From Chloroflexota bacterium (lineage in GTDB: Bacteria; Chloroflexota; UBA6077; CF-72), in contig JACPOP010000016.1 of assembly GCA_016191465.1 (NCBI GenBank), positions 62,001-126,000 on the forward strand: a stretch of DNA of 64,000 nucleotides, written 5' to 3'. Under the pieces are notes generated by a model. That model saw only the letters and a program-made list of their open reading frames with translations. It was not told the DNA's origin and searched no databases. The translations under genes were made by a program, and so were the position numbers. Position 1 is the stretch's first letter. Each line of letters begins with the position of its first letter. Below, piece by piece: positions 6,894 to 26,666 of this stretch.

Positions 6894-7440
6894 GGGAAAC
6901 CTCCCAACGCCGCCTGGCGCTGAATCTCGCACGCCCACTTTCGCTCAAGCTCGATCGTGCGATAGAGAGAGTAGAAGTGCCGCACGGGTCGCTGCAACTG
7001 TCCATTCCCGGAAGAATCCTCGGGATGTGCCCGGGGCCAGGAGCGAGTTCCAGGTCACCGCCTCTCGACTGCCGGCTCGCCGGGGGCATCATCGGCGGTC
7101 CTGGCGCTGAAAGGCACAGTACGTGGCGGATTCCCTCACTTTTCGTTGGGAGGGTGCCCGCCATAGCCTGAACGTGGCGCTCCCTTGCGGATCGCGGAGA
7201 GGCACGATGGTCTGCCGCACTGGCCTTGCTACACACCCGGAGCCCCCTGGACGATACTGTTCGATGCGCAGCCGCACGTAGTCCCAGATCCATGGCCCAC
7301 CGAGCGGCAAGCCTGGGAGCGTGCGCCCGACGCACGCATCGGGGTGATTGACGAGTGGGTCGTTTGACACGCTGTGCGGCATTCCGGGGGTACCCACCCC
7401 CTCGCCCCCTCCCGTGCGCGGAAGGGGGAAATTTTCTTCC

Positions 7441-7467
7441 CGGAGGGGGCGCGGCGCGCCCCCTCCG
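7441..7467. repeat. Perfect 12-bp inverted repeat (hairpin), part of a GC-rich intergenic stem-loop tract
   Basis: cggagggggcgc-ggc-gcgccccctccg; adjacent ccccctcccgtgcgcggaaggggg also folds. 48 nt past the stop of the minus-strand MmgE/PrpD CDS. Confidence 0.7.
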
Positions 7468-7514
7468 ACTCCCTGCGCTCCGGTCGAATAGCCCAATGCA
7501 AGGCAGTCGGCCCA

Positions 7515-8909
7515 CTAGGTCCCGCCGATGCGCGGCAGCGCCAGGTCAAAAAAGGTGTCCAGACCGGGCTGATGCTCCAGATCCAGGATCCAGGCAAACA
7601 GCGCGGTGGCCCCGTCGGAGCCCAGGTACGGCAGCACCAGGCCGTCGAACTTGGCGCGCAGCTCGGCCTCGGAGAGCGGGTTCTCGGGCTCGCCACGGGG
7701 GATGGGCACAAGCTCGGAGAATGATTGGCCGGACTGGGTGGTGATGGTCACCCGTCCAGCCACCTGGGATGGGAAGAGGGCCTCGACATCGGCATCGTGG
7801 ACCGAGTGAATGCGGGACATCAGCGCACGGATCGTGGGGTCGCAGAGTTCCGTGGCGTAGTCGGACCAGCCCAGACGGCCGTGCCGGAGCCCGACGGCGA
7901 CGCCGAATGGCGCTGAGAACTGCGCCTCTATGACGCTGGTCGGCTGCTGCTTCCGGTCCTCGGGCCATCCGACCAGATCCAGGCTCTGCCGACACAGGCC
8001 GACGGTCGCACTGGCGATTTCGGCCGAGGGCACCTGATGCCGAACGTAGAGGGCAAGCGCCGCGTCCACGGCAGCGTGCATCCCGCGGCACGCCGGGTAC
8101 GGCTTGAACCCGATGCGGGCAATCTCCCACTGCTGGCCGAGATCCTGGACGGTTCGCTCCGGCCGGGCCTCGTTCGAATACAGGCGATAGAACCCGCTAG
8201 CGCCCTCCAGGGCCTCGCTAGCACCGGTGAACCCGGCCTGGGCGAGCGCCGCTGCCGTGAGGCCGCAAGCCGCGGCATGGCCGACCTGGAACCGCTTGGT
8301 CCACGCGCCATTGACGTGGAACTGGCCGGAGCCGGAGGTCTCGCTCAAGGCGGTTCCGAACGCGTGCTCTACCTGAGTCGCGGAGAGGCCCAGCACCCGA
8401 GCGGCGGCTGCCGTTGCGCCGAAGGCCCCGCAGGTGGGCGTGGCGTAGAACCCTTTGCCGTAGTGGCTGCCAGGGCCGAGCGCCACGCCGATGCGGCACA
8501 TCACCTCGACGCCGACGACGATCCCCGCCAGGAGCTCGCGGCCGCTGGCGCCAGCGACCTGCGCCGCGACGAGCGCCGCGGGGATAACCGGTGCGCTTGG
8601 GTGGTGCAGGGCGGCCACGTGCGTATCGTCGAAGTCGATGCTGTGCGCCATGGCGCCGGTCAGCAACGCCGCTGCCGGGGCCGCGTAGCCGGCGGGATCA
8701 CCGATGCAGCGAAAGCGCCCGCGGTCCAGCTCCAGCGCGCGCAGCGCCCCGACGAGGGACGGCGTCGATTCGCTCTCCTGGCGCGTTAGCAGCGCGATGC
8801 CGGTGATGTCGGCGAGGAGCAGCTTCGCCTTGGCCACCACCGAGGCGGGGACAGCATCCAGCGACAGGCCGGCCGCCCACGCCGCGACCTGGGCGGTGAC
8901 ATCCTGCAT
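7515..8909 (-). CDS. MmgE/PrpD family protein
   Basis: AKLLLADITGIALLTRQ..., HSIDFDDTHVAALHHPSAPVIPAALVAAQVAGASGRELLAGIVVGVEVMCRIG, GFYATPTCGAFGATAAAARVLGLS. Confidence 0.92.
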   Translation of the reverse strand: MQDVTAQVAAWAAGLSLDAVPASVVAKAKLLLADITGIALLTRQESESTPSLVGALRALELDRGRFRCIGDPAGYAAPAAALLTGAMAHSIDFDDTHVAALHHPSAPVIPAALVAAQVAGASGRELLAGIVVGVEVMCRIGVALGPGSHYGKGFYATPTCGAFGATAAAARVLGLSATQVEHAFGTALSETSGSGQFHVNGAWTKRFQVGHAAACGLTAAALAQAGFTGASEALEGASGFYRLYSNEARPERTVQDLGQQWEIARIGFKPYPACRGMHAAVDAALALYVRHQVPSAEIASATVGLCRQSLDLVGWPEDRKQQPTSVIEAQFSAPFGVAVGLRHGRLGWSDYATELCDPTIRALMSRIHSVHDADVEALFPSQVAGRVTITTQSGQSFSELVPIPRGEPENPLSEAELRAKFDGLVLPYLGSDGATALFAWILDLEHQPGLDTFFDLALPRIGGT

Positions 8910-10324
8910 CAGTCCACCGCCCCAGCCGGACGGATGATGCCCACACCGTCCTCGGTGTGGATGAACGTTCCGAACGGCTCGGAGCAGCGCCGGAGGCGGT
9001 CCAGTACCTCCCGTCCAACCGTCTCGCCGGCGAGAACCGGCCGTCCTCGCTGGCCCGTCGGTAGGCCCATGCCCAGGTCGACCGGATACAGGCGGATCTC
9101 CGCCAGGCGGCGGTCGTCCCAATCGACGACCGCCAGGGTGCTCTGCCACTGGTCGCGCAGGATGGCCTGGCCCTGCGACTGCCCGCCGCTGCGGTCCTCG
9201 TAGAACGCCGACAATGGGGCGTTCGGCGGCAGTCGTCGGCGCGTGTAGGCGCTGGCGGGTTGGCGCAGCACGGTATCGCTCTGGAGGATGAAATCGCCCA
9301 GGCTGTAAAAGATCGGCTTGCCACGGTAGAGCTCAATCGCCTGGTCGCGGTGGGGGCCGTGGCCCACCACGGCGTCGGCGCCCGCGTCGATCGCGTGGTG
9401 GGCCAGCCGGACAATGTTCTCGCCGGGCTCGTCGTAGGGACTGCCCTGCAGCCCCGTGGGATAGCCCGGCGAGAAATGGTGGATGCTGAAGATCACCCAG
9501 TCGGCCATTCGGCGGGCATCCTCGATCCAGCCCAGGGTGGCGGCGACGTCCTCCTCGTTCAGGGTGTAGTGGGTCTCAAAGTGGTTCCCGGCCCGGAAGT
9601 GGAGTGGGGCCATGCCCCCGTACTCGCCCCGCAGGCCGAGCTCGAACGGCGGCCCTTCCGGGTCGCCAATGGCGACCCGGGCCCGTCCCTGGAGCCAGGC
9701 CATCACACCCTCCAGATCGAGGTTGCGCTGGTCCCAGCCGAGATGCTGGCTGATACGGCGAAGCGCGGCCATCGCCTCGCCGTCGACGGTGTAGCTGGCC
9801 TGGACCCTGATGTGGTGAATACCAGGCTTCCCGGGCACATCGCCCCGCGGGTCGACGGCGCGCCCGTACGTTCCGCCATTGAGGTGATCGGTCGCGGCGA
9901 CCAGTGCCACCCGGCCCTTGGGCGTATCCAGGTAGGCCGGCGACTGGGCCAGGGACAGGGTGGCGCCGGTGCCGGCGTGGGCCAGGCCGTACTCGTCGAG
10001 GTGGCGGATGTTGGCCAGGACGCCCGCGTCGCCGTAGTCGTAGGCGTGGTTCTGCGCGCAGGCGACCATGCCGAAGCCCATCCACTTGAGATCCTCGATC
10101 AGCCTCGGATCGGCGCGCATGTAGGTCCCGGAGTTGTCGGGCGCGGGGGGACCCTCGTAGTCGTGGAACAGACACTCCGAATTGCCGAACGCGACGTCTG
10201 CCCCACGCACGAGCTCGACGAGGCGGAGGTATTCGGGCTCCCGGAAGGGGCGCAGCGCCCGGGTCACGATCAGCTCTCCAGCCAGGGCCATGCGGATGGC
10301 GCCCCGCTGGGACTCGTACAGCAT
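8909..10324 (-). CDS. CapA family (poly-gamma-glutamate synthesis-type metallophosphatase) protein
   Basis: GADVAFGNSECLFHDYEG, MVACAQNHAYDYGDAGVLANIRHLDEYGLAHAGTG, ADAVVGHGPHRDQAIELYRGKPIFYSLGDFI; stop/start overlap (ATGA) with downstream MmgE/PrpD. Confidence 0.87.
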   Translation of the reverse strand: MLYESQRGAIRMALAGELIVTRALRPFREPEYLRLVELVRGADVAFGNSECLFHDYEGPPAPDNSGTYMRADPRLIEDLKWMGFGMVACAQNHAYDYGDAGVLANIRHLDEYGLAHAGTGATLSLAQSPAYLDTPKGRVALVAATDHLNGGTYGRAVDPRGDVPGKPGIHHIRVQASYTVDGEAMAALRRISQHLGWDQRNLDLEGVMAWLQGRARVAIGDPEGPPFELGLRGEYGGMAPLHFRAGNHFETHYTLNEEDVAATLGWIEDARRMADWVIFSIHHFSPGYPTGLQGSPYDEPGENIVRLAHHAIDAGADAVVGHGPHRDQAIELYRGKPIFYSLGDFILQSDTVLRQPASAYTRRRLPPNAPLSAFYEDRSGGQSQGQAILRDQWQSTLAVVDWDDRRLAEIRLYPVDLGMGLPTGQRGRPVLAGETVGREVLDRLRRCSEPFGTFIHTEDGVGIIRPAGAVD

Positions 10325-10659
10325 GAGCTCGGCCGGTCGGTCGTTCCCCACGGTCTCTCCTCTGGCATGGCGCCGCCCCGCGGCCGGGTGAAGCGTAGTG
10401 GGGCCAGCCCGTCCGAACGAGTGACCGCCGCACGACGAACCTGTTCCAGATGGCGACAGGTCACAGGACGAGAAGCGCACCTACCACGAAGAGCGCGCTG
10501 ATAGGGCGGTCCTGGCGCCTCGGGGCACCCAACATGGGTTATCTGGTCACTATTGGCCGATGCGTCAGGCCCATAGCCTCTTGGGATGTGGAGCAGCCGC
10601 GCAGGGACGGTGCGTCCCCTCCGTGAGACGGGCTCTGGGCAGATGCTGCGTGAGGAACC

Positions 10660-11901
10660 ATGAACGACAAGGTTGAAGCGGTGGGCCCGCTTTCCCCCGT
10701 GCCGCCGCCCGCGGGCGGCGGCACGGACTGGGCCCGGGAGTGGGATCCGCTCGCCCCGGGCACCTTCGACGATCCCGCGGCCACGTACGCCGAGATGCGC
10801 GCGCGCTGCCCCGTCGCCCAGTCTGACCGCTGGGGTGGTTTCTGGGCCCTCACCCGCTACGACGACGTCGTGGCCGTCGCGGCGGACTACGAGACGTTCA
10901 CGACCGCGGTCCAGAACCTGGTCCCGCGGTCGCCCCGGTCAGGCGTCGCTCGCCGTCCGCTGCAGGTCGATCCGCCCGAACACGCCCAGTTCCGGCGTGC
11001 CATGAACCCCTACTTCGAGGTCGACCGGGTGGCGCTCCTCGAGCCCACGCTGCGGGAGGTGGCGGCTCGGTTCCTCCAGCCACTGCTGGACCGGGGCGCG
11101 GGTGACCTGGCCGAGGAGTGGGCGCGCCATTTGCCCATCCGCGCCGTGTGCGCGCTCCTCCGAGTGCCGGAAGGGGATGCGGAGTGGATCCAGTCGCGCA
11201 GCCGGCGGTATGTGGCGTCGATTGCCAGCGATCCGGAGACCGCGAACCGCCTGAGCGGCGAGCTCGACGACTATGCCCGACGCCTGGTCGCCACCCGGCG
11301 CGCCTCCCCGATCGACGCCCATCTCGACATCGTCAGCGGGCTGCTGGAGCAGGGCATCGGCGGCCGGCCGGTGGGGGACGAGGTCGTGGCGAGCTTCGTC
11401 CGTGGCCTCATCGTGGCGGCCGATCGGAGCACCACCCATGGCATCAGCAACGGAGCCCTGCACCTGGCCCGCGACCCGCGTCTCCAGGAGTACCTGCGCC
11501 AGCATCCCGGGCGACTGCCAGACGCAATCGAAGAGCTTGTGCGGCTCTACGCGCCCAGCCACGCCACCGCTCGCACGGCCACGCGAGACGTCGAGCTCGG
11601 CGGCTGTCCGATCAAGCAGGGCGATCCGGTCGCACTGGTTTGGATGGCGGCGAACCGCGACCCCGAGGTCTTCCCCGATCCCGACACTTTCGACATGGAC
11701 AGACGGCCGAATCGCCACGTCGGGTTCGGGCACGGCATCCACAAGTGCGGCGGCCAAACCGTTGCCCGTCTCCAGCTCCGGGTGGCGCTCGAGGTCCTGC
11801 TCGGCAGCACGAGCCATTTCGAGGTGGTCGGCCCGGTCGCGTACCAGACCTGGCCGGAGTACGGGCCGAACCAGCTCCCGGTGCGGCTCGTCCAACGATA
11901 G
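10660..11901 (+). CDS. Cytochrome P450
   Basis: Heme signature VGFGHGIHKCGG; ExxR in AIEELVRLYAPSHATARTATRDVELGG. Confidence 0.95.
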   Translation: MNDKVEAVGPLSPVPPPAGGGTDWAREWDPLAPGTFDDPAATYAEMRARCPVAQSDRWGGFWALTRYDDVVAVAADYETFTTAVQNLVPRSPRSGVARRPLQVDPPEHAQFRRAMNPYFEVDRVALLEPTLREVAARFLQPLLDRGAGDLAEEWARHLPIRAVCALLRVPEGDAEWIQSRSRRYVASIASDPETANRLSGELDDYARRLVATRRASPIDAHLDIVSGLLEQGIGGRPVGDEVVASFVRGLIVAADRSTTHGISNGALHLARDPRLQEYLRQHPGRLPDAIEELVRLYAPSHATARTATRDVELGGCPIKQGDPVALVWMAANRDPEVFPDPDTFDMDRRPNRHVGFGHGIHKCGGQTVARLQLRVALEVLLGSTSHFEVVGPVAYQTWPEYGPNQLPVRLVQR

Positions 11902-11905
11902 CCGG

Positions 11906-12176
11906 ATGCCCGACCAGCCACACGCGCAGATCTGGAGACCCTTGGAGTCCGCGTTGCTGACGGACCCGGCGCGGGAGCACGCCTGGTTCCGCGACCGCTG
12001 CCCTGTTGCCTGGTCCGACACGCTGGGGGGCTCTTGGGCGGTCTTTCAATACGAGATCCTGGACGCGGGTCGAGGAGGTGCTCGCGCGGACGACCGGCTT
12101 CGCAGTGGCCGGCGAGGTGGGGCGCTCGTCCTGGCCACGCTACGGGGTGACGATGCTGCCGCTGACGTTTCAGTGA
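11906..12176 (+). pseudogene. Internally deleted cytochrome P450 remnant (N- and C-termini only, in different frames)
   Basis: N-term MPDQPHAQIWRPLESALLTDPAREHAWFRDRCPVAWSDTLGGSWAVFQYE, then in another frame VEEVLARTTGFAVAGEVGRSSWPRYGVTMLPLTFQ*, a typical P450 C-terminus; no heme-binding region between. Confidence 0.8.
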
Positions 12177-12281
12177 GCAGGTTTGGCGTCGGGGAGACCC
12201 GAGACTTGGGCTCGTCGACTGAGGCGCGGGAATCGAGGTCCGAACGCCCGTTGACACTCGCTGAGCGCGCCCCTAGACTCA

Positions 12282-12303
12282 CTCGATCGATTGACCGATC
12301 GAG
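12282..12303. promoter_or_regulatory. Putative TetR-type operator, site 1 (upstream of solute-binding protein)
   Basis: CTCGATCGattgacCGATCGAG, perfect 8-bp arms; 20/22 identical to the site at 21623. Confidence 0.65.
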
Positions 12304-12389
12304 TATGGGACCGCGACCGTGGACCGGTGGAGGAACCGCGGGCGGGGACCATCGTCAACTCGACTGGCAAGGAGCACAAGGGGAACTGG

Positions 12390-13586
12390 ATGACTGGACC
12401 ATCGAATCCCACGCGGCGTGATGTCCTTCGGCTAAGCGGCCTGCTGGGCCTCGGCGCCGCCGGGCTGTCAACCCTCGCCGCGTGCACGTCCGCACCCGCC
12501 GCCTCCACGGCGGTGCCGACCACCGCGCCGAAGCCGGCTGCCACGACAGCACCAGCCGTACCCGCGGCAGCAACGGCAAGTCCGGCCGCGGCTGGGAAAC
12601 CCGCAGCCTCACCCGTTGCGGCCGCTTCGCCCGCCGCGGCAGCGTCGCCCGCGGCCAACGCCGCGAACGAGGCTGCCCTGGTGGAAGCGGCCCGGCGCGA
12701 AGGACGCGGGCTCCTGTACGCGGTGAGTGACCCCGCCGCCTCGATGGCGACACTGGCAGCGTTCAAGGCGAAATACGGCATCGAGGTTGAGTTCCAGCGC
12801 CTCACCTCCGGCCCACTGGCGCAGCGGTATGCCGCCGAAGCCGATGCGGGCAATATCCAGGCGGACATGCTGATCACTTCCGATCCTGCATTCATGGAGC
12901 AGGCCACTGGTCGTGGCTGGCTGGCCAAGATTGGCCCCACCGACGTGCCGCTGCTGGCGCAGATGCCCAGGGAGTACGTCACCGACAGCACCGTGGTGGT
13001 GGCCTTTACACCCAGCGGCATCGCGTGGAACAAGAACCTCGTCAAAGACGCGGATGCGCCGAAGGCGTGGCAGGATGTATTGGACCCGAAGTGGAAAGGG
13101 CAGATCATCCTGCTCGACCCCAAGGGCTCAGCGCCCGTGCTGGAGTTCCTGACCGTCATGCGGGAGAACTTTGGGGATGATTTCCTGCGCAAGCTAGGCG
13201 CCCAGCAGCCACAGTTGGTGGCAAGCGCGGTCACGGCCTCGCAGCAGCTCGCGGCCGGCGGCGCCGCGCTGACCGTGCCGGCGGTACACGCGACGATCGT
13301 CCCTCTCCTGGCGCAAGGTGCGCCCATCGTCGAGGCGTTCCCGAACCCTGCCGCGCCAGCAGCAAGCGTGGCGGGAATCTCGGCCAAGGCGCCCCGTCCC
13401 AACGTCGCGCGCCTCCTCCTCAACTACTACCTGACCGTCGAAGGGCAGACGATCTTCAACAAGGACCTCTGGTCGCCACTCCCGAACATCGCGGGGACCC
13501 GCCCCCTGCCGCAGCTCTCGCCGAGTCGGGTGAAGGAAGGCCTCGCGGCCCAGGCGGACATCCTGCGGCTCCTCGGGTTGAGCTAG
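12390..13586 (+). CDS. ABC transporter extracellular solute-binding lipoprotein (Fe3+/spermidine-type)
   Basis: Tat/lipoprotein leader RRDVLRLSGLLGLGAAGLSTLAAC, Ala/Pro-rich linker, periplasmic-binding fold (NIQADMLITSDPAFMEQATGRGWLAKI). Confidence 0.88.
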   Translation: MTGPSNPTRRDVLRLSGLLGLGAAGLSTLAACTSAPAASTAVPTTAPKPAATTAPAVPAAATASPAAAGKPAASPVAAASPAAAASPAANAANEAALVEAARREGRGLLYAVSDPAASMATLAAFKAKYGIEVEFQRLTSGPLAQRYAAEADAGNIQADMLITSDPAFMEQATGRGWLAKIGPTDVPLLAQMPREYVTDSTVVVAFTPSGIAWNKNLVKDADAPKAWQDVLDPKWKGQIILLDPKGSAPVLEFLTVMRENFGDDFLRKLGAQQPQLVASAVTASQQLAAGGAALTVPAVHATIVPLLAQGAPIVEAFPNPAAPAASVAGISAKAPRPNVARLLLNYYLTVEGQTIFNKDLWSPLPNIAGTRPLPQLSPSRVKEGLAAQADILRLLGLS

Positions 13587-13692
13587 ACGGACAGTCTTTC
13601 CCACCAGGGCAGCAACGGTGGGCGTTCACGTCCCTTCCGCCACGGTTGCTGATCCAGGCGGCCGTCCGGTTACGCTTCTTTCCTCGATCCCT

Positions 13693-14835
13693 ATGCCGAT
13701 CGCTTCAGCGGCTCCTGGCCAGACTTCGCCCAGCGTCCGTATTAGCGGCCTCTCCAAGGCCTACCGGGCACGCCGGGGAGAGGTGCCAGCGCTGGCGAAC
13801 GTGTCGCTGGAGATCGCGGATGGGGAGATCCTCGTATTGCTCGGCCCTAGTGGCTGCGGGAAGACCACCTTGCTGCGCTGCGTGGCGGGGTTGGAGCGCC
13901 CTGATGCGGGCGAGATTAAGATTGGCGGGTCGGTCGTCTTCTCCTCGGTGCGCGGCATCTCCGTGCCGCCCGAGCGGCGCAACCTGGGCATGGTGTTCCA
14001 GAGCTATGCGCTCTGGCCGCACATGACCGTCTTCGACAATATCGCTTACCCGCTCCGAAACCTGAAGATGGCGGCGGCTGAGGTGGGCGAGCGCACCCGC
14101 GCCGTACTGGGTGTGGTAGGCCTGGACGCGCTCGCGCGCGCCTACCCAGGCCAGCTCTCGGGCGGACAGCAGCAGCGGGTGGCCCTGGCCCGTGCGATCG
14201 TCAGCAACGAGGGTGTGATCCTGTTCGACGAGCCGCTCTCCAATCTCGACGCCAAGGTCCGCGAGCGGATTCGGCTGGAGTTGCTGGCCCTCCACAAGGA
14301 CATCCGCTTCTCCGCGCTGTACGTCACCCACGATCAGACCGAGGCCGCGGCCCTGGGTGACCGCATCGCAGTCATGAATGCGGGCGAAGTGGCGCAGGTC
14401 GGAACGCCGGCGGAGGTCTACCACCGGCCCGAGACCCGGTACGTGGCCGACTTCGTGGGCAGCACGAACGAGCTGGCAGGCACGATCATAGAGTTCCCCG
14501 ATAACGAAGGGTCTTGCCGGGTGGAGACGGCAGTGGGGCGCATCCACGGGCGGATGACGCCCGTGGCCGACGCACATCCCGGTGACGCGGTAACGGTGAT
14601 CTTCCGCCCCGAGCACTGCCGTATCGGCGAAGCGGGCGTTGGAGACGCCCGCGCCAATCGCTTCGTCGGCCACGTCGAACGGTCGATCTTCCTGGGCTCG
14701 TACGTTGAATACCTGGTCCGGGCGGGCGGTGCGCAGCTCGTGCTGCGGAGCATGGACGGCGACCTCCTCCCCGAGGGAACCGAGCTCTCGGTGTACCTGG
14801 CACCAGAGCGGGCCCGGGTCTTCCCCCGGGTCTGA
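13693..14835 (+). CDS. ABC transporter ATP-binding protein (FbpC/PotA type)
   Basis: Walker [31 protein letters not shown], Walker [14 protein letters not shown]-terminal TOBE-like region. Start chosen at internal ATG. Confidence 0.93.
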
Positions 14836-14854
14836 GCGGAGGGACGGACGAAGC

Positions 14855-16576
14855 ATGGCCGCGGCCACGGGTGAGGCGGTGAGCCGCAGGCAGTCTCCGG
14901 CGTGGACCCGCCTGCCGAGCATGGGACTCGTGGTCGGTGTCGTCACGGTCCTGCTGGCGTTGTTGGTGCTTTACCCGCTCGTCACCACCCTCGTGCGAGT
15001 CCTGCTCGATCCGGAGCAGCTCCGACTGGCGGAGATCGACTCCGCCGTTCCCGGAATGCTGGCGAACACGGCGATCGTGGTGCTCTTCAGCGCCGCGCTG
15101 GCGCTGCTGGTGGGCTCCGTTTTCGCCTGGCTGAACGAGCGGACCGATGCATCTCTCCGGGCGGTTGGCGAAATGCTGCCATTGGCCCCGCTCCTGACCC
15201 CGCCGCTGGCCGGGGTGATCGGCCTGGTCGTGCTGTTCGAGCCGCGGGCGGGGTTGGTCAACGGCTGGCTGCGTGCGCTGCTGGGCGCGGTGGGAATATC
15301 CACCTCCTCCGGCCCTATCAACCTTTACACCCTGCCTGGGCTTGTTGCGGTGACCGCGCTGTACCTGGTGCCGTACGTGTACCTGGTGGTCTCGACGTCT
15401 TTGCGCAAGCTGGACCCTTCACTTGAAGAGGCATCGCGGCTGAACCGAGCAGGTCCGCTGCGTACCCTGGTATGCGTGACGTTGCCGGCCATCAAGCCGT
15501 CCCTGATTGCCGCCGGACTGCTCGCCGTCATCAGCGCCCTGGGGCTGTTCTCGGTGCCGGTCGTGATTGGCACCGGCGCCCGGGTCGAGGTGCTCTCGGT
15601 CTACATCTTCCGGCTGCTGGAGAACTTCCCGCCGAAAACCGGCTCGGCGCTGATCCTGGCGGCGCTGCTGCTGGTGCTGGTGCAGGCGCTCCTCTTCGCT
15701 CAGCGTTGGCTGGCGCCAGCGGGTCGGCACGCCGCCGTCGGGGGACGCGGGTTTCGGACGAATCCGGTGCTGCTGGGCCGGCTGCGGCCCTGGGCGCGGG
15801 GCATGATGGTGCTGTACCTGCTGGTGACCGCGATCCTGCCGCTGGCGGGGCTGGTGTTCGTCTCGCTCCAGCCGTTCTGGACGCCCGCGGTCCAGTGGGA
15901 CCGGCTCTCCCTGAACAACTACAAGACCGTGCTGATCGATACCCGCGCGACCTCGCAGGCGCTCCTGAACAGCCTGGGCCTTGGCGCGGCGACGGCGACC
16001 ATCGTGATGCTCGCGGCCGGGCTGCTGATGCTGTACGTACACCAGGCGCGCGGGCGGGGGCGCCGATTCGTCGACGTCGTCACCAGCCTGCCGGCAACGT
16101 TCCCGCACACCATCATCGGCGTGAGCGTGCTCGTCGCCTTCAGCCGGCCGCCCTTGCCGCTGTACGGCACGGTGGGGATCTTACTGGTGGCCTACCTGAT
16201 CATGGGGCTGCCCTACGCCGCCCGCGCCGCGAGTGCCGCGACGGACGACATTGGGCTGGAGCTGGTCGAGGCGTCGCGCGTGTTTCGGGCGTCCGAACGA
16301 CGCACGTTCGTGCGGATCCTGCTGCCAATTGCGCTGCCCGGCCTCGCCGCGGGCTGGATCATTGTGTTCGTCACTACCGCGGGGGAGCTGACGGCCTCGG
16401 TGCTGCTCTCGAGTACGGGAAACCCGGTGCTGGGGCGAGTCATGATCGACCTGTGGGCGTACGGCAGCTACCCGCAGGTGACGGCGCTCGCGGTGATCAT
16501 CACCGCTCTGAACGGGGTGTTCGTGGCGATCATGCTCCGCGTTGCGCGCCGAACCCTGAGCCGAGCCGTGGCGTAG
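14855..16576 (+). CDS. ABC transporter permease, double-domain iron/thiamine type (FbpB-like)
   Basis: ~573 aa, two TM domains, each with an EAA loop (LDPSLEEASRLNRAGPLRTLVCVTLPAIKPSL; LELVEASRVFRASERRTFVRILLPIALPGL). Confidence 0.9.
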   Translation: MAAATGEAVSRRQSPAWTRLPSMGLVVGVVTVLLALLVLYPLVTTLVRVLLDPEQLRLAEIDSAVPGMLANTAIVVLFSAALALLVGSVFAWLNERTDASLRAVGEMLPLAPLLTPPLAGVIGLVVLFEPRAGLVNGWLRALLGAVGISTSSGPINLYTLPGLVAVTALYLVPYVYLVVSTSLRKLDPSLEEASRLNRAGPLRTLVCVTLPAIKPSLIAAGLLAVISALGLFSVPVVIGTGARVEVLSVYIFRLLENFPPKTGSALILAALLLVLVQALLFAQRWLAPAGRHAAVGGRGFRTNPVLLGRLRPWARGMMVLYLLVTAILPLAGLVFVSLQPFWTPAVQWDRLSLNNYKTVLIDTRATSQALLNSLGLGAATATIVMLAAGLLMLYVHQARGRGRRFVDVVTSLPATFPHTIIGVSVLVAFSRPPLPLYGTVGILLVAYLIMGLPYAARAASAATDDIGLELVEASRVFRASERRTFVRILLPIALPGLAAGWIIVFVTTAGELTASVLLSSTGNPVLGRVMIDLWAYGSYPQVTALAVIITALNGVFVAIMLRVARRTLSRAVA

Positions 16577-16633
16577 CGGCTCGCACCCCGGATCGGACTA
16601 CCCTCCGCGGGCCTTCGCCGCTGCGCTGGTCGC

Positions 16634-17338
16634 CTAAGACCGGGCCGGGCGCAATGCGTGCAGCAAGAGGTCCACGTACGCCCGGCCGATCTCTTCGGGC
16701 GTCAGCGGGCCGTCCGGCCGATACCAGCGGCCGACGGTCAGCCCAGTACCGATGATGGCGAACACCGTGAGCTTGGGGTCCACCGGCCGGAGCTCGCCGC
16801 TCTCGATGCCCCCTCGCACCAGATCGCGAAACTGGTGCTCGTAGCTGTCGCGCATCGCCAGGTACTCGGCGCGGTGCGCCGGGCTGAGATGGTTCATGTC
16901 GGTGCGATTGACCGTAGTCCCGAACGCGCGCTCGGCGGAGTACTGCACATGGAACGCGATGGCGGCGGCAAGGCGCTCTGTCCAGGAGGGGCCAACCTCC
17001 TCGATGCGAGCCTTCAGACCGCTGGCCAGCTCGACCATCGAATCCTGGAGCACGTCGAAGAGGAGCTGCTCCTTGGTCGTGCAGTGGAAGTAGAGGGTCG
17101 AAATGCGAATACCCGCGGAGGCGGCAATGTCGCGCATCGAGGCGGCCTCATAGCCGCGTTCGGCGAAATGGGTCCGAGCCGCCTCGCGCACCAGCTCCAG
17201 CCGGGGTGGTCCCTCGACACCGGAGGGGCTCCCCGTCTGGCGCCGGGGGCGCGTCGCCGCCGGAGTATGCTTCGGCACCGCGGCCACGTGGCCGCGGTTG
17301 GCAGAATGCCGCGAGGGAGTTCTCTTGGTGGGCATGGA
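16634..17338 (-). CDS. TetR/AcrR family transcriptional regulator
   Basis: RLELVREAARTHFAERGYEAASMRDIAASAGIRISTLYFHCTTKEQLLFDVL; C-terminal domain resembles KstR2/FadR-type regulators. Confidence 0.93.
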   Translation of the reverse strand, partial: SMPTKRTPSRHSANRGHVAAVPKHTPAATRPRRQTGSPSGVEGPPRLELVREAARTHFAERGYEAASMRDIAASAGIRISTLYFHCTTKEQLLFDVLQDSMVELASGLKARIEEVGPSWTERLAAAIAFHVQYSAERAFGTTVNRTDMNHLSPAHRAEYLAMRDSYEHQFRDLVRGGIESGELRPVDPKLTVFAIIGTGLTVGRWYRPDGPLTPEEIGRAYVDLLLHALRPARS

Positions 17339-17368
17339 ATAGGGCGTCGCGGCGCCCGGGTGTCCAGG

Positions 17369-17387
17369 CCGATCGATCGCCCGATAG
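17369..17387. promoter_or_regulatory. Putative TetR-type operator, site 2 (upstream of tetR)
   Basis: Minus strand CTATCGGGCGATCGATCGG, ~31 bp upstream of tetR ATG. Confidence 0.6.
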
Positions 17388-17399
17388 TGTACGCCAACC

Positions 17400-18599
17400 T
17401 CAGTCCCCGACGCGCAGCACGATCGCGGCGCCGGTGTCGCCGGCGGCGCAGCCGGTGAACAGCCCAATACCCCCACCACGCAGCCGCAGCGTCTCGATGA
17501 GCTCCGCGATCGCCCGCAGCCCGGTCGGCCCCTGCGGATGGCCCCACACCAGGCTGCAGCCGTAGACGTTCATCCGCTCCAGCGGGATGCCGGACTCGCG
17601 GTGGAAGTAGACGTCGTTGACGGCGAACGGGTTATGGGTGGTTACCAGGTCCACGTCGGCGAACGTCAGCCCCGCGGCCGCCAGCGCCTTGCGGGCCGCG
17701 GGCACGGGCGCCTTCGGCATGCGCGCCTTCTCCGCGCGCGCCACGCCGCTCCCCAGAATCCGCGCCACGCCCTCACCCTGGGAGAGCTGCCGGGCCTGCT
17801 CCTCGGTAGTGACCAGGGCACCGGCGGTCCCGTCGGCGGGGTGGGTCTGCATCCCAAAGGTGACCACCCCCTCCGGCAGCACCGGCTTCAGGGCGGCCAG
17901 GCCCTCGGCAGAGGTGGGAAAGATACCCTCGTCGGCCTCCACCAACCGTTGAGGCACGCCCCGCTTGCGGCCCGGCAACGCCGCTGGCACGAAGTAGCGC
18001 TTCTGGAAGGCCCGGTCATGGGCTAACGCCTGGTCGTACTGCCGGTAGCGCAGCAGCGTGACCTCGTCGAGCTCCTCGCGGGTGACGCCGATCTCCTCGG
18101 CCACGTTCTCGGCCGTCTGGAGCATGCTCTGGCCGGTGTTCGGGTCGGCCTGGAAGTTGTCCAGCACCCAGTGCTCCGTGCTCGGCGCACCGCCCGCCGA
18201 TGAGGGTGCCGGGTGGAGCAGGAGCGGCCCGTTGCTGGTGCGGTCGGTGGCCAGGACCAGCGTCAGGCCCGCCTCGCCTTGCTCAATGCCGGCGGCGGCG
18301 TGCTCGAGGCAGATGGCGCTGGTCGCGCAGGCCTGACTGAGCATCGGCCCCGTCACCCCGGGCAGGCCGAGCCGGGCGGCCACGGTGGGCGCCCCGTAGA
18401 AGCTCCCTGGCTGCGGCACGGTCCAGCCCAGGACCAGCCGCTCGATGCGATCGCGGTCCACCTGGCGTTCGTCCAGCGCACGGCTGGTGACGTCGACGGC
18501 CAGATCCAGGGCATTGACCTCGGCCAGGCTGCCCTGCCAACGCGTGAATGGGGACGACCAGGCGCCCCCGAGCGGGATGCTCGCGTGCTCAAATCGCAT
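17400..18599 (-). CDS. Thiolase family / acetyl-CoA acetyltransferase
   Basis: QACATSAICLEHAAAGIEQGEAGLTLVLATDRTS, VTTHNPFAVNDVYFHRE, NVYGCSLVWGHPQGPTGLRAIAELIE. Confidence 0.93.
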   Translation of the reverse strand: MRFEHASIPLGGAWSSPFTRWQGSLAEVNALDLAVDVTSRALDERQVDRDRIERLVLGWTVPQPGSFYGAPTVAARLGLPGVTGPMLSQACATSAICLEHAAAGIEQGEAGLTLVLATDRTSNGPLLLHPAPSSAGGAPSTEHWVLDNFQADPNTGQSMLQTAENVAEEIGVTREELDEVTLLRYRQYDQALAHDRAFQKRYFVPAALPGRKRGVPQRLVEADEGIFPTSAEGLAALKPVLPEGVVTFGMQTHPADGTAGALVTTEEQARQLSQGEGVARILGSGVARAEKARMPKAPVPAARKALAAAGLTFADVDLVTTHNPFAVNDVYFHRESGIPLERMNVYGCSLVWGHPQGPTGLRAIAELIETLRLRGGGIGLFTGCAAGDTGAAIVLRVGD

Positions 18600-18612
18600 G
18601 GCTCGGCACTCC

Positions 18613-18632
18613 CTCGATCGGTCTATCGGCCG
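18613..18632. promoter_or_regulatory. Putative TetR-type operator, site 3 (upstream of thiolase)
   Basis: Plus strand CTCGATCGGTCTATCGGCCG; reverse complement contains CGATAGACCGATCGAG. Confidence 0.6.
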
Positions 18633-20149
18633 CTTACCGGCTGGCGCGCAACCTCGTCGCGGAGGACCCGCTTGAGAATCTTGCCCGTCGCACTCTTCGG
18701 CAATGCGGGCACCAGGTCGAAGCCGCGCGGGACCTTGTACGCGGCCAGCCGTTCCCGACAGTACGCCTCGAGCTCGGCGGCCGTCGTGGCCGCGCCCGCG
18801 GCGAGCACCACGGCTGCCAGGGGGACCTCGCCCTTGACGGGGTCAGGAGCCCCGTAGACGGCGCACTCACCGACGGCTGGATGCTGGTAGAGCACCTCCT
18901 CCACTTCCCGCGGCCACACCTTGAAGCCGGCCGCATTGATCATGTCCTTGGTGCGGTCGACGATGAAGACGAACCCGTCCTCGTCCATGTAGCCCACATC
19001 ACCCGTGTGGAACCAGCCCCCGCGTAGCGCCTCCGCCGATTCGCTGGGGCGGTTCCAGTAGCCCAGCATGACGTTCGGCCCCTTGATGCAGATCTCGCCC
19101 CACGTCCCGCTCGGCACCTCGTGGTCCTCCGGATCCACGATGCGCAGATCGACGTTCGCGATGGCCGCGCCGACGGATCCCGGACGATGGTGCCACTCGT
19201 GGTTGTACGAGGCAAACGGGGAGGTCTCGCTCAATCCATAGCCCTCGTATACGGGGCTCTGGAAGATGGCCTTCCAGCGTTCCGCGACCTCCACCGGCAT
19301 GGTCGCCGCGGCGCTAAAGAAGTAGCGCACGCCGGGCATGTCCTCGCGTCGTATGCCGCTGTCCAGCAGCATGATGAAGATCGTGGGCACCGCGAAGAAC
19401 ATCGTGACGCGATCCCGGACGATGGAGGCGAGCACGCCCTCCCGATCGAAGCGGCGGTGCAGCACCACCGCGGCGCCGGCCGCGAACGCGGCGTTCATGA
19501 TGAAGTTCTGCCCGAAGACGTGAAAGAGTGGGAGGAACAGCAAGAGCCGATCGTCGGGATCCACGCGCATGTACTGGCGGGTAGCCTCCATGTTGGAGAC
19601 CACGTTGCCGATGCTGAGCGTTGCACCCTTCTGCTTGCCGGTGGTGCCGCTGGTGTAGAGGATCGCGGCCGGGTCATCCTTCTCGCGGAACGCCAGCGGG
19701 GGTGTGGATGCGCCCAATCCGAAAGCGGCAAGCGGTGTCGTGCCTGCCACGGCACCTTCGCACAGGACCACGCGCGACAGGTCCCCGAGGTGCTTCGCAG
19801 CCAGAGGCGCCAGCGCGGGCCAGAGCGCCTCGGTGGTAAAGGCCAGACGAGCGCCGCTGTCTTCGAGCAGGTACCGAAGCTCCTCGGTCGTCAGCATCAC
19901 GTTGGCGGAGACCGTGATGGCGCCCAGCCACTGGCACGCCTGATAGGCAATGACGAAGCTCGGCGTGTTTGGGAGGAACAGAGCCACGCGGTCACCCGGC
20001 TGTACCCCCGCCGCGGCCAGCCCGCCCGCCACCTGCTGCACCCGCTGGCGCAAGTCCCTGTAGCTGATGGCGGCTTCGCCTTCAAACAGAATGGCGGGCT
20101 GCCCTGGGAAGTGTCGTGCCGCCCGCTCGATGTGCCCCGCGATATTCAT
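18623..20149 (-). CDS. AMP-dependent acyl-CoA synthetase/ligase
   Basis: AILYTSGTTGKQKGATLS, VYEGYGLSETSPFASYN, GGWFHTGDVGYMDEDGFVFIVDRTKDMI, KSATGKILKRVLRDE. Confidence 0.95.
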   Translation of the reverse strand: MNIAGHIERAARHFPGQPAILFEGEAAISYRDLRQRVQQVAGGLAAAGVQPGDRVALFLPNTPSFVIAYQACQWLGAITVSANVMLTTEELRYLLEDSGARLAFTTEALWPALAPLAAKHLGDLSRVVLCEGAVAGTTPLAAFGLGASTPPLAFREKDDPAAILYTSGTTGKQKGATLSIGNVVSNMEATRQYMRVDPDDRLLLFLPLFHVFGQNFIMNAAFAAGAAVVLHRRFDREGVLASIVRDRVTMFFAVPTIFIMLLDSGIRREDMPGVRYFFSAAATMPVEVAERWKAIFQSPVYEGYGLSETSPFASYNHEWHHRPGSVGAAIANVDLRIVDPEDHEVPSGTWGEICIKGPNVMLGYWNRPSESAEALRGGWFHTGDVGYMDEDGFVFIVDRTKDMINAAGFKVWPREVEEVLYQHPAVGECAVYGAPDPVKGEVPLAAVVLAAGAATTAAELEAYCRERLAAYKVPRGFDLVPALPKSATGKILKRVLRDEVARQPVSGR

Positions 20150-20186
20150 GATGCTGCCGTCCCCCTACCGTACGTTGCGGCTACTG

Positions 20187-20214
20187 GCCAAGCACTTCGT
20201 GCTTGATCTTCAGA
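20187..20214. promoter_or_regulatory. Palindromic motif shared with 34804-34831
   Basis: GCCAAGCACTTCGTGCTTGATCTTCAGA with core CAAGCAC-TTC-GTGCTTG, ~40 bp upstream of acyl-CoA ligase. Confidence 0.5.
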
Positions 20215-20282
20215 AATGCTCAGCACGTGCAATCAGTTCCGTAGCACCATGCCAAGCTTAGGCTCACGTGCTGAGCCTGGGC

Positions 20283-21074
20283 CTACAAGGTGGAGCCGAC
20301 GGAGGCGCCGCCATCCACGAACAACACCTGGCCGGTGATGAAGGAGGCGTCGTCGCTGACCAGGAAGGCGTGGGCCGCGGCAATCTCGCCGGGTTGCGCG
20401 AACCGTTTGAGTGGGATCCCGGCCATCAGCTTCTCCTTGATCTCGGCCGGGATGCCCGCCGTCATGCGGGTCTCGGTACCGCCTGGTGCCACGCAGTTGA
20501 CGCGAATGCCGTAGCGGCTCCACTCGAGGGCGAGCGTCCTGGTGAGCCCGATCACGCCGGCCTTGCTGGCCGCGTAATTCGCCTGGCCGACGTTGCCGAG
20601 CGCGGCGATCGACGCCGTGTTGACGATGCGGCCGTCGTTGTGCTCGCGCATGACCGGCTGCACCGCCTGGGCGCACAGAAAGGTGGCCTTCAGGTTCACC
20701 GTCAGCACCGCGTCCCACTGTTCCTCGGTTAGCCTGGCGGCCAGGCCGTCGCGGTTGATCCCCGCGTTATTGATGAGGATGTCGATCCGCCCCCCGAATC
20801 GCTCGCGGGCCTGCCGGACCAGGTCCGTGATCGTGGCGGTGCTCGTCACGTCGCCCACCAGCGCCAGCGCCTGGCCCCCAGCGGCTCCGATGGCGGCCAC
20901 GGTCGTCTGGACGCCCTCTTCCTGGAGGTCGACCACGCCCACCGCGGCTCCCTCGCTGGCCAGCCGGTGCGCCGTAGCCGCGCCGATCCCGCCGCCGGCG
21001 CCGGTCACCAGCGCTACCTTGCCTACCAGGCGCCGGACCACCGCCTCCGCCCCGCCGTCGGCCTGGGCGTTCAT
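20283..21074 (-). CDS. SDR family oxidoreductase (3-oxoacyl-ACP reductase-like)
   Basis: VALVTGAGGGIGAATAHRLASEGAAV, ILINNAGINRDG, NYAASKAGVIGLTRTLALEW, FITGQVLFVDGG. Confidence 0.95.
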   Translation of the reverse strand: MNAQADGGAEAVVRRLVGKVALVTGAGGGIGAATAHRLASEGAAVGVVDLQEEGVQTTVAAIGAAGGQALALVGDVTSTATITDLVRQARERFGGRIDILINNAGINRDGLAARLTEEQWDAVLTVNLKATFLCAQAVQPVMREHNDGRIVNTASIAALGNVGQANYAASKAGVIGLTRTLALEWSRYGIRVNCVAPGGTETRMTAGIPAEIKEKLMAGIPLKRFAQPGEIAAAHAFLVSDDASFITGQVLFVDGGASVGSTL

Positions 21075-21586
21075 CGTCCCGCTCCCGTGGCAGTCGCCGT
21101 TGCTTCCAGGTGGTCGGCGCCAGGCCGGCGGCGCAGCATGATCACCTGCTGCGCCTGGATAACCGGTTCCCCACGCTGGTTGAGCACCGTGGTCTTCAGC
21201 GTGACGACGCCGCGGTCGGGCTTGCTGGTCTCCTTCTTCTCGGTGACTTCGAGCTTGGTCTGGACGGTGTCCCCGAATTTCACCGCGCCCACGAACTTCA
21301 GCGTGAGCTCGAGGAGAGCGATCGTCGTGCCAAGCACCCAACCCGCCTGGTTGACCTGTCCGGTCATGACCGATGCCACGAGCATGCCGTGGGCGACCCG
21401 GCCACCGAATGGCGTGGATTCGCCAAAGACCTGGTCCGTGTGGAGCGGGTTGAAGTCCCCCGACACACCCGCAAAGGCGGCTACGTCGGCCTCGGTGATC
21501 GTCCGGCGTCCGGTGACCAGCACCTCGCCGAGGGTAAAGTCTTCGAAATAGCGGCCCCGCGGTGAATCCGACACGCTGCGTTCCAT
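21071..21586 (-). CDS. MaoC family dehydratase
   Basis: GRYFEDFTLGEVLVTGRRTITEADVAAFAGVSGDFNPLHTDQVFGESTPFGGRVAHGMLVASV; ATGA overlap with SDR. Confidence 0.95.
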   Translation of the reverse strand: MERSVSDSPRGRYFEDFTLGEVLVTGRRTITEADVAAFAGVSGDFNPLHTDQVFGESTPFGGRVAHGMLVASVMTGQVNQAGWVLGTTIALLELTLKFVGAVKFGDTVQTKLEVTEKKETSKPDRGVVTLKTTVLNQRGEPVIQAQQVIMLRRRPGADHLEATATATGAGR

Positions 21587-21622
21587 TCCTTTGTTCGAGC
21601 AAACAGATGGCCGAGCACGGCA

Positions 21623-21644
21623 CTCGATCTATCGACCGATCGAG
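21623..21644. promoter_or_regulatory. Putative TetR-type operator, site 4 (upstream of maoC-SDR-ligase-thiolase-tetR run)
   Basis: CTCGATCTATCGACCGATCGAG, ~37 bp upstream of MaoC start. Confidence 0.65.
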
Positions 21645-21697
21645 AGCACGAGTATACGCACCCGAGGGGCGGGCATTCACCCCGCGAAGCCGCACCG

Positions 21698-21890
21698 TCA
21701 GGTGGTGATGCCGCCCTCGGGCAGCGCGTGTTCCGCCCTGATCGCCTCGAGGGCTTCGAGGTCGAGCAGGTCCTTCGGACGGCCCGCGGTCCGCTTCATC
21801 TCGACGAGGTCCGGCACCCCTCCTCCGACAGGAGGCGCAGGATTACTTCGGGGTCGAACTCGCCGGTCGTAGTCGTGCGATCCGGCGCGC
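21698..21890 (-). pseudogene. Internally deleted nucleotidyltransferase-like gene remnant
   Basis: N-term TTGEFDPEVILRLLSEEG in one frame; C-term DLVEMKRTAGRPKDLLDLEALEAIR in another; resembles DUF6036/MNT-like nucleotidyltransferase termini. Confidence 0.55.
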
Positions 21891-22025
21891 GGCCCGCAGC
21901 CGGCGCGCGAAGCGGGAGAGGGTGACACCCTGGCGAAACCGCTCGGCCGGCGTCCGCTGGAGCGCCGCTCGGATGAGCGTCAGGTCCACGCTGCCCTTCG
22001 GCGGCTCCGGGACCGAGGATTCCAT
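21843..22025 (-). CDS. Small conserved-looking protein, possible partner of the nucleotidyltransferase remnant
   Basis: MESSVPEPPKGSVDLTLIRAALQRTPAERFRQGVTLSRFARRLRAARRIA..., overlapping upstream position relative to the remnant. Confidence 0.4.
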   Translation of the reverse strand: MESSVPEPPKGSVDLTLIRAALQRTPAERFRQGVTLSRFARRLRAARRIARLRPASSTPK

Positions 22026-22129
22026 CGAGCACAGGATACGCCAGCGGCGCCGCGATAGCGGGCTCACCGAGCGCGGAGCGCTTCCCACGGTATGATGGGG
22101 TCAACGCCCTGTCATACACTCCTCGCTCG

Positions 22130-23473
22130 GTGGCAGGTCGAACGATCGATCGAGACTCCGAGCGGGATTGGCAGGGGCGCCGCAGCGCCAAGGCGCTTGC
22201 GTGCACCAGGGCGTTTTCCGCGCACCAGCGGGCCTGGTTTGGCGAGCTGCAGGCGCGGGCTCGGCTGGGTGACCCGATCGCGCTGGTCAACGCCGACGTG
22301 CCGCACGAGATCTTCCGGGCCATGGACATCCCCTACGTAGTCAACCAGTGGTGGGCTTCGGTAGTTTCGGCCAAACAGAAGTCTGCGCAGTACCTGGGCT
22401 CCTTGCGGGAGCGGGGCTACCCCGACGACTCGGAGCAGTACAACGCCCTGGCCCTCGCCTCGGCCTTCGATCGCGACCCCGAGCAGGCGCCCTGGGGCGG
22501 TCTGCCGCTCCCGACTATCGTCGTCGCCGAAGCGTACGGCGATGCCATGCCGAAGGTATTCGAGCTGTGGGCTCTGGAGCACGGCGCCGCGTTCTACCCC
22601 CTCGAGAAGACCGTGCTGACGGAGGACCCAGACCCGCGCTGGTGGGAGCGTGTCCAGGATGATTGGGAGGCGCTCATTGGAAGCGAGCGCATCGACCTGC
22701 TGGTCGACGAGCTGAAGGGGCTGATCCGATTTCTGGAGCAGACGACGGGACGGATCTTCGACGAAACCCGTTTTCGCCGCGTGATGCTGCTCGCCAACGA
22801 GCAGGCCGCCTTCAACGCCGCCGCGCGGGATCTGGTAGCCCGGACCACCCCGGCGCCGATCAGCATCACGGACAGCATCCCGGCGGTGATGCTCCCGCAG
22901 TGGCACCGGGGTACCGAATGGGGACGGGATGCGGCGCGCACCTTCTTCGAGGAAGTCGAGGCGCGGGTCGAGCAGGGTGAAGCGGCCTATCCGGGCGAGC
23001 GCATGCGGCTCATGTGGGTCGGCCGCGGGTTGTGGTTCAATCTTGGCTTTTACCAGTTCTTTCAGGAACGGTTCGGAGCGGTGTTCGTGTGGTCCATGTA
23101 CCTGGCGATCGCCGCCGACGGCTACATTCGACGGGGCGCCGATCCGCTGCGCACGCTGGCTGGACGGTTCGCGGCGTTCACCGAGCAACTGAATGCGCCC
23201 CCCTGGAACGCGGCCTGGTTCGTCAAGGAGGCGCATCACAACCAGATCGACGGTGTTATCCACCTGGCTGGCGGCGCCCAGCGAGGAGCGTACTTCGTGA
23301 CCAGGGCGCTGGAGGAGGCTGGCTTTCCGGTGTTCCAGATCGACGCCGACAACGTCGATGCCAGGAACTGGAACGAAGAGGCGCTCAAAGATAACCTATC
23401 AGCCTTCCTCGAGCACCGCGTCGCGGCCCGTGCATACGCACGCCTCGCGGCCGCCCGACCAGCCGCCACCTGA
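22130..23473 (+). CDS. 2-hydroxyacyl-CoA dehydratase family protein, subunit A-like (HgdB/BcrB-related)
   Basis: LGDPIALVNADVPHEIFRAMDIPYVVNQWW..., TPAPISITDSIPAVMLPQWHRGTEWG, C-terminal DGVIHLAGGAQRGAYFVTRALEEAGFPVFQIDADNVDARNWNEE. Start GTG uncertain. Confidence 0.8.
   Translation: MAGRTIDRDSERDWQGRRSAKALACTRAFSAHQRAWFGELQARARLGDPIALVNADVPHEIFRAMDIPYVVNQWWASVVSAKQKSAQYLGSLRERGYPDDSEQYNALALASAFDRDPEQAPWGGLPLPTIVVAEAYGDAMPKVFELWALEHGAAFYPLEKTVLTEDPDPRWWERVQDDWEALIGSERIDLLVDELKGLIRFLEQTTGRIFDETRFRRVMLLANEQAAFNAAARDLVARTTPAPISITDSIPAVMLPQWHRGTEWGRDAARTFFEEVEARVEQGEAAYPGERMRLMWVGRGLWFNLGFYQFFQERFGAVFVWSMYLAIAADGYIRRGADPLRTLAGRFAAFTEQLNAPPWNAAWFVKEAHHNQIDGVIHLAGGAQRGAYFVTRALEEAGFPVFQIDADNVDARNWNEEALKDNLSAFLEHRVAARAYARLAAARPAAT
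22135..22154. promoter_or_regulatory. Putative TetR-type operator, site 5 (weaker; overlaps predicted start of 2-HAD subunit)
   Basis: AGGTCGAACGATCGATCGAG; right half CGATCGAG as in sites 1, 3 and 4. Confidence 0.4.
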
Positions 23474-23483
23474 AGGGACTGCG

Positions 23484-24299
23484 ATGCCAACCGTTCGCCT
23501 GAGCGATTGTGAGCTCTATTACGAGGAGTACGGTAGCGGTGATCGATGTGTCCTGTCCGCGCACGTGTCCCTCACGCCGGGCGACTCGTACCAGAAGCTC
23601 CTGGCGTCGCAGGCAGGCCTGCACGTCTACGACATCCAGATCCGGGGCTTCGGGCGCTCGACACATGTGATCGAGCCTCCAGTCGGCGGCTGGTACCAGA
23701 CCTGGGCCAACGACGTGGTCCAGTTCGCGCGGGTGATCGGTCTCGGCAGGTTCATCTATACCGGAGTGTCCCACGGCGCGGGGATCGGGTGGTCGCTGGC
23801 CCTGGACCACCCGGAGGTGCTCGAGGCATTCGTCGCCGTTGTCGGCGGCCCGCACGATCGCTCAACGCCCCGCGGTACGGGAATGGGCGTTGGTTCGGGA
23901 GGTGCCCCGGCCCCACCGAGCTTCCATTTCGTGCCCACACATGATCCGGTTCGGCGGCAGCGGCAGGAGGCGATCCGGGCGCATCTCCAGGATCGAGCCA
24001 CGGCAATGGCGCCCGAAGAGCGGGCCATCAATCCCGGAAAGGTGTTCCCGGACCTGGCCTCCAACGAGGAGGTGGCGGCCCGTCTCGCGCAGGTGGCCGT
24101 TCCCACGCTGCTCCTGTACGGCGCCCAGGACGAGATCATCCCCGTCGGAATGGCGCTCCTTGCCGCCCGAGCGATCCCTGGCGCGAAGCTGGTGCTCTAC
24201 CAGGACCAGAGCCACACGATGTCGCGAGAGATCCCCGAGCGGCTGGTCTCGGAAGTCCGCCTGTTCCTCGACGAGCTCGCCACGGCGCAAGCGAGCTAA
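23484..24299 (+). CDS. Alpha/beta fold hydrolase
   Basis: IYTGVSHGAGIGWSLALDHPE nucleophile elbow (GVSHGAG), TLLLYGAQDEIIPVGMALLAARAIPGAKLVLYQDQSHTM. Confidence 0.9.
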   Translation: MPTVRLSDCELYYEEYGSGDRCVLSAHVSLTPGDSYQKLLASQAGLHVYDIQIRGFGRSTHVIEPPVGGWYQTWANDVVQFARVIGLGRFIYTGVSHGAGIGWSLALDHPEVLEAFVAVVGGPHDRSTPRGTGMGVGSGGAPAPPSFHFVPTHDPVRRQRQEAIRAHLQDRATAMAPEERAINPGKVFPDLASNEEVAARLAQVAVPTLLLYGAQDEIIPVGMALLAARAIPGAKLVLYQDQSHTMSREIPERLVSEVRLFLDELATAQAS

Positions 24300-25501: not shown

Positions 25502-25502
25502 C

Positions 25503-26632: not shown

Positions 26633-26666
26633 GCGGATTCGCTCGTTTCATCTGGCGCGACGGACA

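Follow-up and report, generated by a model that had tools for sequence, protein, structure and literature searches.

We analyzed a 64,000-nucleotide stretch (the window) of contig JACPOP010000016.1 from a Chloroflexota bacterium (assembly GCA_016191465.1). It carries a gene for a TetR-family repressor among genes of coenzyme A (CoA)-ester metabolism and a set of six near-palindromic sites. The sites are located at the starts of the tetR gene itself, a thiolase gene, a run of MaoC, short-chain dehydrogenase/reductase (SDR) and acyl-CoA ligase genes, an ABC importer operon that begins with a solute-binding protein (SBP) gene, a flavin monooxygenase (FMO) gene, and a gene for an HGD-D protein (HAD1) that is followed by an alpha/beta hydrolase gene. 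Their coordinates are listed in Table 1. Gene calls were mechanical, made from open frames and third-position GC. The six sites had been listed in a preliminary description of this DNA, and each was recovered in the window, displaced by no more than a few bases from the position given there. The sites, their genome-wide specificity, their positions relative to starts, the fold and group of the TetR, and the related palindromes beside two of its close homologs were computed directly.

Table 1. Putative operators, promoter and genes of the TetR locus (window coordinates)
Feature	Position	Strand	Remarks
Putative operator at FMO	6950-6967	-	CTCTATCGCACGATCGAG; exact 18-mer dyad, 11 bp from GTG 6938
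Putative operator at SBP/ABC transporter operon	12282-12303 (18-mer 12286-12303)	+	22-bp palindrome CTCGATCGATTGACCGATCGAG
Putative operator at tetR (autoregulatory)	17372-17389	-	CACTATCGGGCGATCGAT; 36 bp from ATG, overlaps TACACT -10-like hexamer
Putative operator at thiolase	18613-18630	-	GCCGATAGACCGATCGAG; 13 bp from ATG
Putative operator at MaoC	21623-21644 (18-mer 21627-21644)	-	22-bp palindrome CTCGATCTATCGACCGATCGAG (+ strand), 36 bp from ATG, follows TATACT -10-like hexamer
Operator-like site at start of HGD-D gene (HAD1)	22137-22154	+	GTCGAACGATCGATCGAG
Sigma-70-like promoter TTGACA-17-TAGACT	12251-12279	+	10/12 matches, directly before SBP operator
TetR-family repressor	16634-17335	-	ATG 17335, 233 aa; TetR_N + TetR_C_24
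FAD monooxygenase (FAD_binding_3; MhpA/PheA-like)	5667-6938	-	
ABC importer	12390-16576	+	binding protein 12390-13586, ATPase 13618-14835, fused permease ending 16576
Thiolase	17400-18599	-	Thiolase_N/C; closest PDB matches are thiolases
AMP-forming acyl-CoA ligase	18623-20149	-	best PDB matches 8weu/8wev
SDR, FabG-like, 3-hydroxyacyl-CoA dehydrogenase candidate	20283-21074	-	
MaoC-type hydratase	21071-21586	-	SGDFNPLH hydratase motif present
HGD-D protein (BzdO/MbdO/HadB-like; HAD1), then alpha/beta hydrolase	22130-24299	+	

Alignment of the six sequences gave a common dyad of 18 bp, CTCKATCG-NN-CGATMGAG. The dyad alone was shared, and both the flanks and the central bases varied. The arms of the 22-bp SBP and MaoC palindromes are CTCGATC/GATCGAG, and within each palindrome a second 18-mer reading is possible, shifted by 4 bp and overlapping the first. 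The 3' end (final codons) of the ligase gene extends into the thiolase site. The sites had been described as lying at or just upstream of gene starts. All six were near starts, but the HAD1 site is inside the open reading frame (ORF), covering codons 3-9 from the start GTG 22130.

For a leave-one-out analysis, a symmetric position weight matrix (PWM) was trained on five sites and the sixth was used as the test. None of the 63,857 background positions in the window reached the score of any held-out site. The second 18-mer readings at SBP and MaoC also outscored the whole background. A weak partial match at 10550-10564, mentioned in the preliminary description, was outside the 25 best PWM positions and is noise. 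The degenerate core with at most two mismatches had 20 matches in the window versus 4.1 expected, a number reached in 0 of 100 shuffles.

Pattern searches allowing mismatches were then applied to the whole 2.15-Mb assembly, which is 78% complete and has a GC content of 68%. The strict core CKATNGNNCGATCGAK had exactly five matches, all of them inside these 15 kb, and its reversed control had no match in the assembly. Matches scattered through coding sequence across the genome had been named beforehand as the outcome that would speak against a regulon; the strict core was instead confined to the locus. With at most one mismatch there were 22 distinct places. Six were local, and all six were at gene starts. 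None of the other 16 was at a start: 15 were within predicted ORFs, and the remaining one was in an intergenic stretch, with the closest start about 290 bp away. The seven other matches to the 18-mer with at most two mismatches were all within ORFs. The probability of drawing the six start-proximal places at random from the 22 is 1 in 74,613. The six sites were also all within -110 to +25 of a start, versus about 10% of the region, a test that is post hoc because the sites had first been selected near starts.

The sites were also compared with promoter-like sequences. In a scan of 19 kb, the SBP promoter was the sole match, a yield equal to the shuffle expectation. The SBP operator starts 2 nt past this promoter and therefore should cover the transcription start. 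The -10-like hexamers TATACT (MaoC) and TACACT (tetR and HAD1) precede or overlap the operators, and none was recognized at the FMO and thiolase sites. At most of the operators, a bound dimer would therefore stand in the way of RNA polymerase, the dyad being located on or immediately past a -10-like hexamer; a repressor that acts by blocking requires such a placement.

The TetR family is defined by an N-terminal TetR_N helix-turn-helix and an all-helical C-terminal ligand domain. Both were found, by domain search (PF00440, 7.5e-13; PF17932, 8.5e-34) and in the structural model. The AlphaFold2 model built with 10 aligned sequences had a predicted local distance difference test score (pLDDT) of 81.6; the model built without an alignment had a pLDDT of 41.6 and was not usable. 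By sequence, the nearest solved structure was 3vpr (phmmer 3e-28), followed by AibR (5k7f), a Thermobifida protein and KstR2. 3VPR is PfmR of Thermus thermophilus (PMC6657595). Foldseek analysis of the model also ranked PfmR first, with a template modeling (TM) score of up to 0.88 by target length, followed by KstR2, AibR and FadR. AibR has been solved with isovaleryl-CoA and FadR with stearoyl-CoA. Its domains place the TetR in the acyl-CoA-sensing TetR_C_24 group, and PfmR is its closest solved homolog; orthology is not claimed. As it matches PfmR, KstR2, AibR and FadR by sequence or fold, a CoA thioester is the leading candidate for its ligand.

PfmR (TTHB023) of T. thermophilus HB8 has the consensus (a/c)Y(g/t)A(A/C)YGryCR(g/t)T(c/a)R(g/t), obtained by the in vitro selection method REPSA (restriction endonuclease protection, selection and amplification), and it targets its own gene and genes for acyl-CoA dehydrogenases, SDRs, MaoC, acyl-CoA ligase and thiolase (PMC7022988). 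With the consensus centred on the dyad, the numbers of its nine strong positions that were matched were 8, 8, 8, 7, 8 and 9 for the six sites, the full match being that of the HAD1 site. At least eight strong positions were fitted by 0.3% of all window positions and by 14 of 1,354 (1%) equally palindromic positions. The predicted operator agrees in part with the dyad of the nearest CHARACTERISED homolog, PfmR, which, with so degenerate a consensus, is support and not proof. The two systems have in common the TetR fold, PfmR being the best PDB match by both sequence and structure, a dyad with a CG-NN-CG-type centre, and an autoregulatory site. Besides its own gene, PfmR's SDR, MaoC, acyl-CoA ligase and thiolase targets also have counterparts among the genes that are headed by sites here (tetR, thiolase and the MaoC-SDR-ligase run). 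However, the two proteins are only 33% identical. The fourth and eighth bases from the dyad centre are A here and G/T in the PfmR consensus, and the outer arms here are CTC/GAG. The ABC importer, FAD monooxygenase and HGD-D genes are predicted targets here in addition, and the PfmR operon contains two acyl-CoA dehydrogenases, whereas none was found in the module here.

Only two genomes, both of the same family, yielded TetR homologs with 47-55% identity. In one of them (G003, TetR 55% identical), tetR and an SBP_bac_5 gene are divergent, and the region separating them contains a perfect 20-bp palindrome, one arm of which is CTCGATCGG; tetR is followed by an Opp-type ABC operon. In the other (G002, 47%), CTCGATCAAGCGCTTGATCTAG is located between tetR and a tannase/feruloyl-esterase gene, which is followed by a Liv-type importer. 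The pattern CTMGATCN8GATCKAG matched the 7.2-Mb G002 genome exactly only at this site and at 17 places with one mismatch. A third homolog (L035, 48%) has CoA ligase, CoA transferase, Rieske oxygenase and P450 genes as its neighbors. Uptake, ester or CoA-ligase genes recur beside members of this TetR group, and the arm spacing varies. Among the TetR homologs examined outside the family (at most 36% identity), no CTCGATC-type palindrome was evident. In a Rubrivivax metagenome-assembled genome (L044, 6533-8806), a TetR homolog is open in frame into an AMP-forming acyl-CoA ligase, giving a frame of 758 aa that may be a regulator-ligase fusion or a frame artefact.

On these grounds, it is highly probable that the locus encodes a local, autoregulated, PfmR-like TetR_C_24 repressor that acts on the 18-bp dyad and is released by an acyl-CoA. 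We infer binding by this TetR, repression, and an acyl-CoA as the ligand. That a local TetR repressor has sites both at tetR and at CoA genes in the neighborhood, as the preliminary description proposed, was well supported by the genome-wide specificity and start-proximal positions of the sites, by the acyl-CoA-sensor fold of the TetR, by agreement with the operator geometry of PfmR, and by the palindromes next to two of its three closest homologs. The repressor dimer would bind the dyads at tetR, the MaoC-SDR-ligase run, thiolase, the ABC importer, FMO and the HGD-D/hydrolase pair, blocking RNA polymerase. After activation of an imported acid by the ligase, the acyl-CoA product, or a thioester formed further down the pathway, would occupy the C-terminal domain, and the repressor would leave the DNA. 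The preliminary description had proposed 6-24 kb as a single unit, which was not supported. No site was found at the MmgE/PrpD, CapA and P450 genes (7.5-11.9 kb) or at a second HGD-D gene, HAD2 (24.3-25.7 kb), and the regulon is therefore patchy, with about six transcription units.

Several points weigh against this interpretation. The thiolase site is the weakest dyad of the six, with a single good half. The dyad register is ambiguous. Both an 18-bp and a 22-bp dyad can be read at SBP and MaoC, the G002 palindrome is compatible with the 22-bp form, and in the G003 palindrome the arms are 12 bp apart. No clear site was found at the L035 homolog. The single exact match in G002 is partly due to construction, because the pattern was widened (M/K) to cover that site. 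The two base positions noted above depart from the PfmR consensus, which is itself degenerate. The enzyme module, sought through its thiolase, was not found in relatives: none of the 15 other genomes of the order had an ortholog at E<=1e-80. Finally, targets far from the locus may be absent from the assembly, which is 78% complete.

The sites could instead be operators of another regulator, either a different TetR or one encoded outside the window, with the local TetR reading some other sequence. The imperfect fit to the PfmR consensus and the less regular thiolase and HAD1 sites would agree with this. However, all strict sites cluster round this tetR, one of them at tetR itself, CTCGATC-armed palindromes adjoin two of its close homologs, and the PfmR consensus fits at the same centre. 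No further regulator gene was found among the annotated genes of 5.7-25.7 kb; an extracytoplasmic function (ECF) sigma factor gene is located at 4.96-5.59 kb, a GntR gene at 1.5 kb and a LysR gene at 33.6 kb. We regard another regulator as unlikely.

Much less probable still is that CGATCG-rich palindromes, as compositional noise of a GC-rich genome, were simply picked near starts. CGATCG is frequent in such DNA, and the exact core does occur in relatives, at least four times in G001 and at least eight times in G002 among the matches listed. In this genome, however, the exact core is confined to the locus, the near-misses are coding or far from starts, and the leave-one-out PWM set all six sites apart from the background, so this explanation is largely refuted. 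A mobile or structural repeat (a repetitive extragenic palindromic (REP)-like sequence, terminator hairpins, or a methylation/GATC-type element) would also be palindromic, mostly intergenic and multi-copy, but it is just as improbable, because the sites share only the dyad with differing flanks and central bases, lie at 5' ends and mostly by -10-like hexamers, with none found at 3' ends or with conserved flanks, and have a strict core absent elsewhere in the genome and no Rfam match in the window.

The predicted PfmR-like repressor was also compared with other TetR systems. KstR2 of mycobacteria, a close fold match, represses a local cluster for CoA-thioester degradation. Its operator is of the CAAG/CTTG type, whereas the sites here read CGATCG/CGATAG at the corresponding positions, and no steroid-ring genes were recognized. 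BkaR, AibR and FadR are likewise TetR repressors of CoA metabolism, AibR and FadR having been solved with acyl-CoA. BkaR is autoregulated and controls adjacent genes through the operator GTTA(N)T(N4)A(N)TAAC (PMC3920632), but its operator and targets are unlike those here. MbdR of Azoarcus is a TetR repressor released by an aromatic acyl-CoA, with operators across the transcription start (PMC4424350). As proposed here, it acts on several promoters within one catabolic cluster, including that of a CoA-ligase gene; it differs in its operator, ATACN10GTAT, and in its pathway, which is anaerobic 3-methylbenzoate degradation (PMC4424350).

The ligase, MaoC hydratase, SDR and thiolase form a beta-oxidation set without an acyl-CoA dehydrogenase, and no acyl-CoA dehydrogenase was present among the annotated window genes up to 47.6 kb. 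The module would therefore suit an acid that is already alpha,beta-unsaturated, which is speculative. The ligase matches 8weu and 8wev are named fatty-acyl-CoA synthase and feruloyl-CoA synthetase. Together with the MhpA-like FMO and the tannase/feruloyl esterase and Rieske oxygenase genes of relatives, they make a phenylpropanoid-like substrate a reasonable but weak guess. The importer binding protein is of the Fe3+/P5P/aminoethylphosphonate class. The 20150-20282 gap between the SDR and ligase genes contains an inverted repeat with perfect 12-bp arms, GCTCAGCACGTG/CACGTGCTGAGC, separated by 35 nt, and a short hairpin, CAAGCACTTCGTGCTTG; it had no Rfam match.

HAD1 (22130-23473) had been described as a 2-hydroxyacyl-CoA-dehydratase-like subunit. 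It is an HGD-D (BzdO/MbdO/HadB-like) protein with a single Cys in 447 aa, and it has non-Cys residues where the MbdO cysteines near NNYCNT and KSC align. Since the iron-sulfur (Fe-S) ligands of the family appear absent, its chemistry is uncertain. No BcrAD_BadFG activator was found over the cut-off in the 78%-complete genome, and we doubt that HAD1 is a canonical Fe-S 2-hydroxyacyl-CoA dehydratase. HAD2 is located at 24296-25690. Several gene types occur in pairs (8909-11901, 23358-26651 and 36156-40050), namely CapA-like (PGA_cap), P450, alpha/beta hydrolase, HGD-D and SBP_bac_5; they are accompanied by a CoA-transferase III gene, all within 32 kb, which suggests a duplicated catabolic module. 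An ECF/sigma-70-type sigma factor gene (4960-5589) lies just upstream of the regulon.

It is possible, though improbable as a whole, that the PfmR-like TetR senses an aromatic alpha,beta-unsaturated (phenylpropanoid-type) acyl-CoA. The route under its control would then shorten side chains in a CoA-dependent manner by means of ligase, MaoC hydratase, SDR and thiolase but no acyl-CoA dehydrogenase, and would include a dedicated ABC importer, an FAD hydroxylase and the unusual HGD-D protein without the family Fe-S cysteines.

The regulon is new as an instance and ordinary as a kind of bacterial gene control. It would assign a regulator, an operator and a target set to a previously uncharacterised cluster for import and CoA-ester degradation, and the regulated set makes the identity of the imported, ligase-activated acid testable. 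PfmR-type control would also be extended beyond Thermus, to importer, FAD monooxygenase and HGD-D genes that are outside the PfmR regulon.

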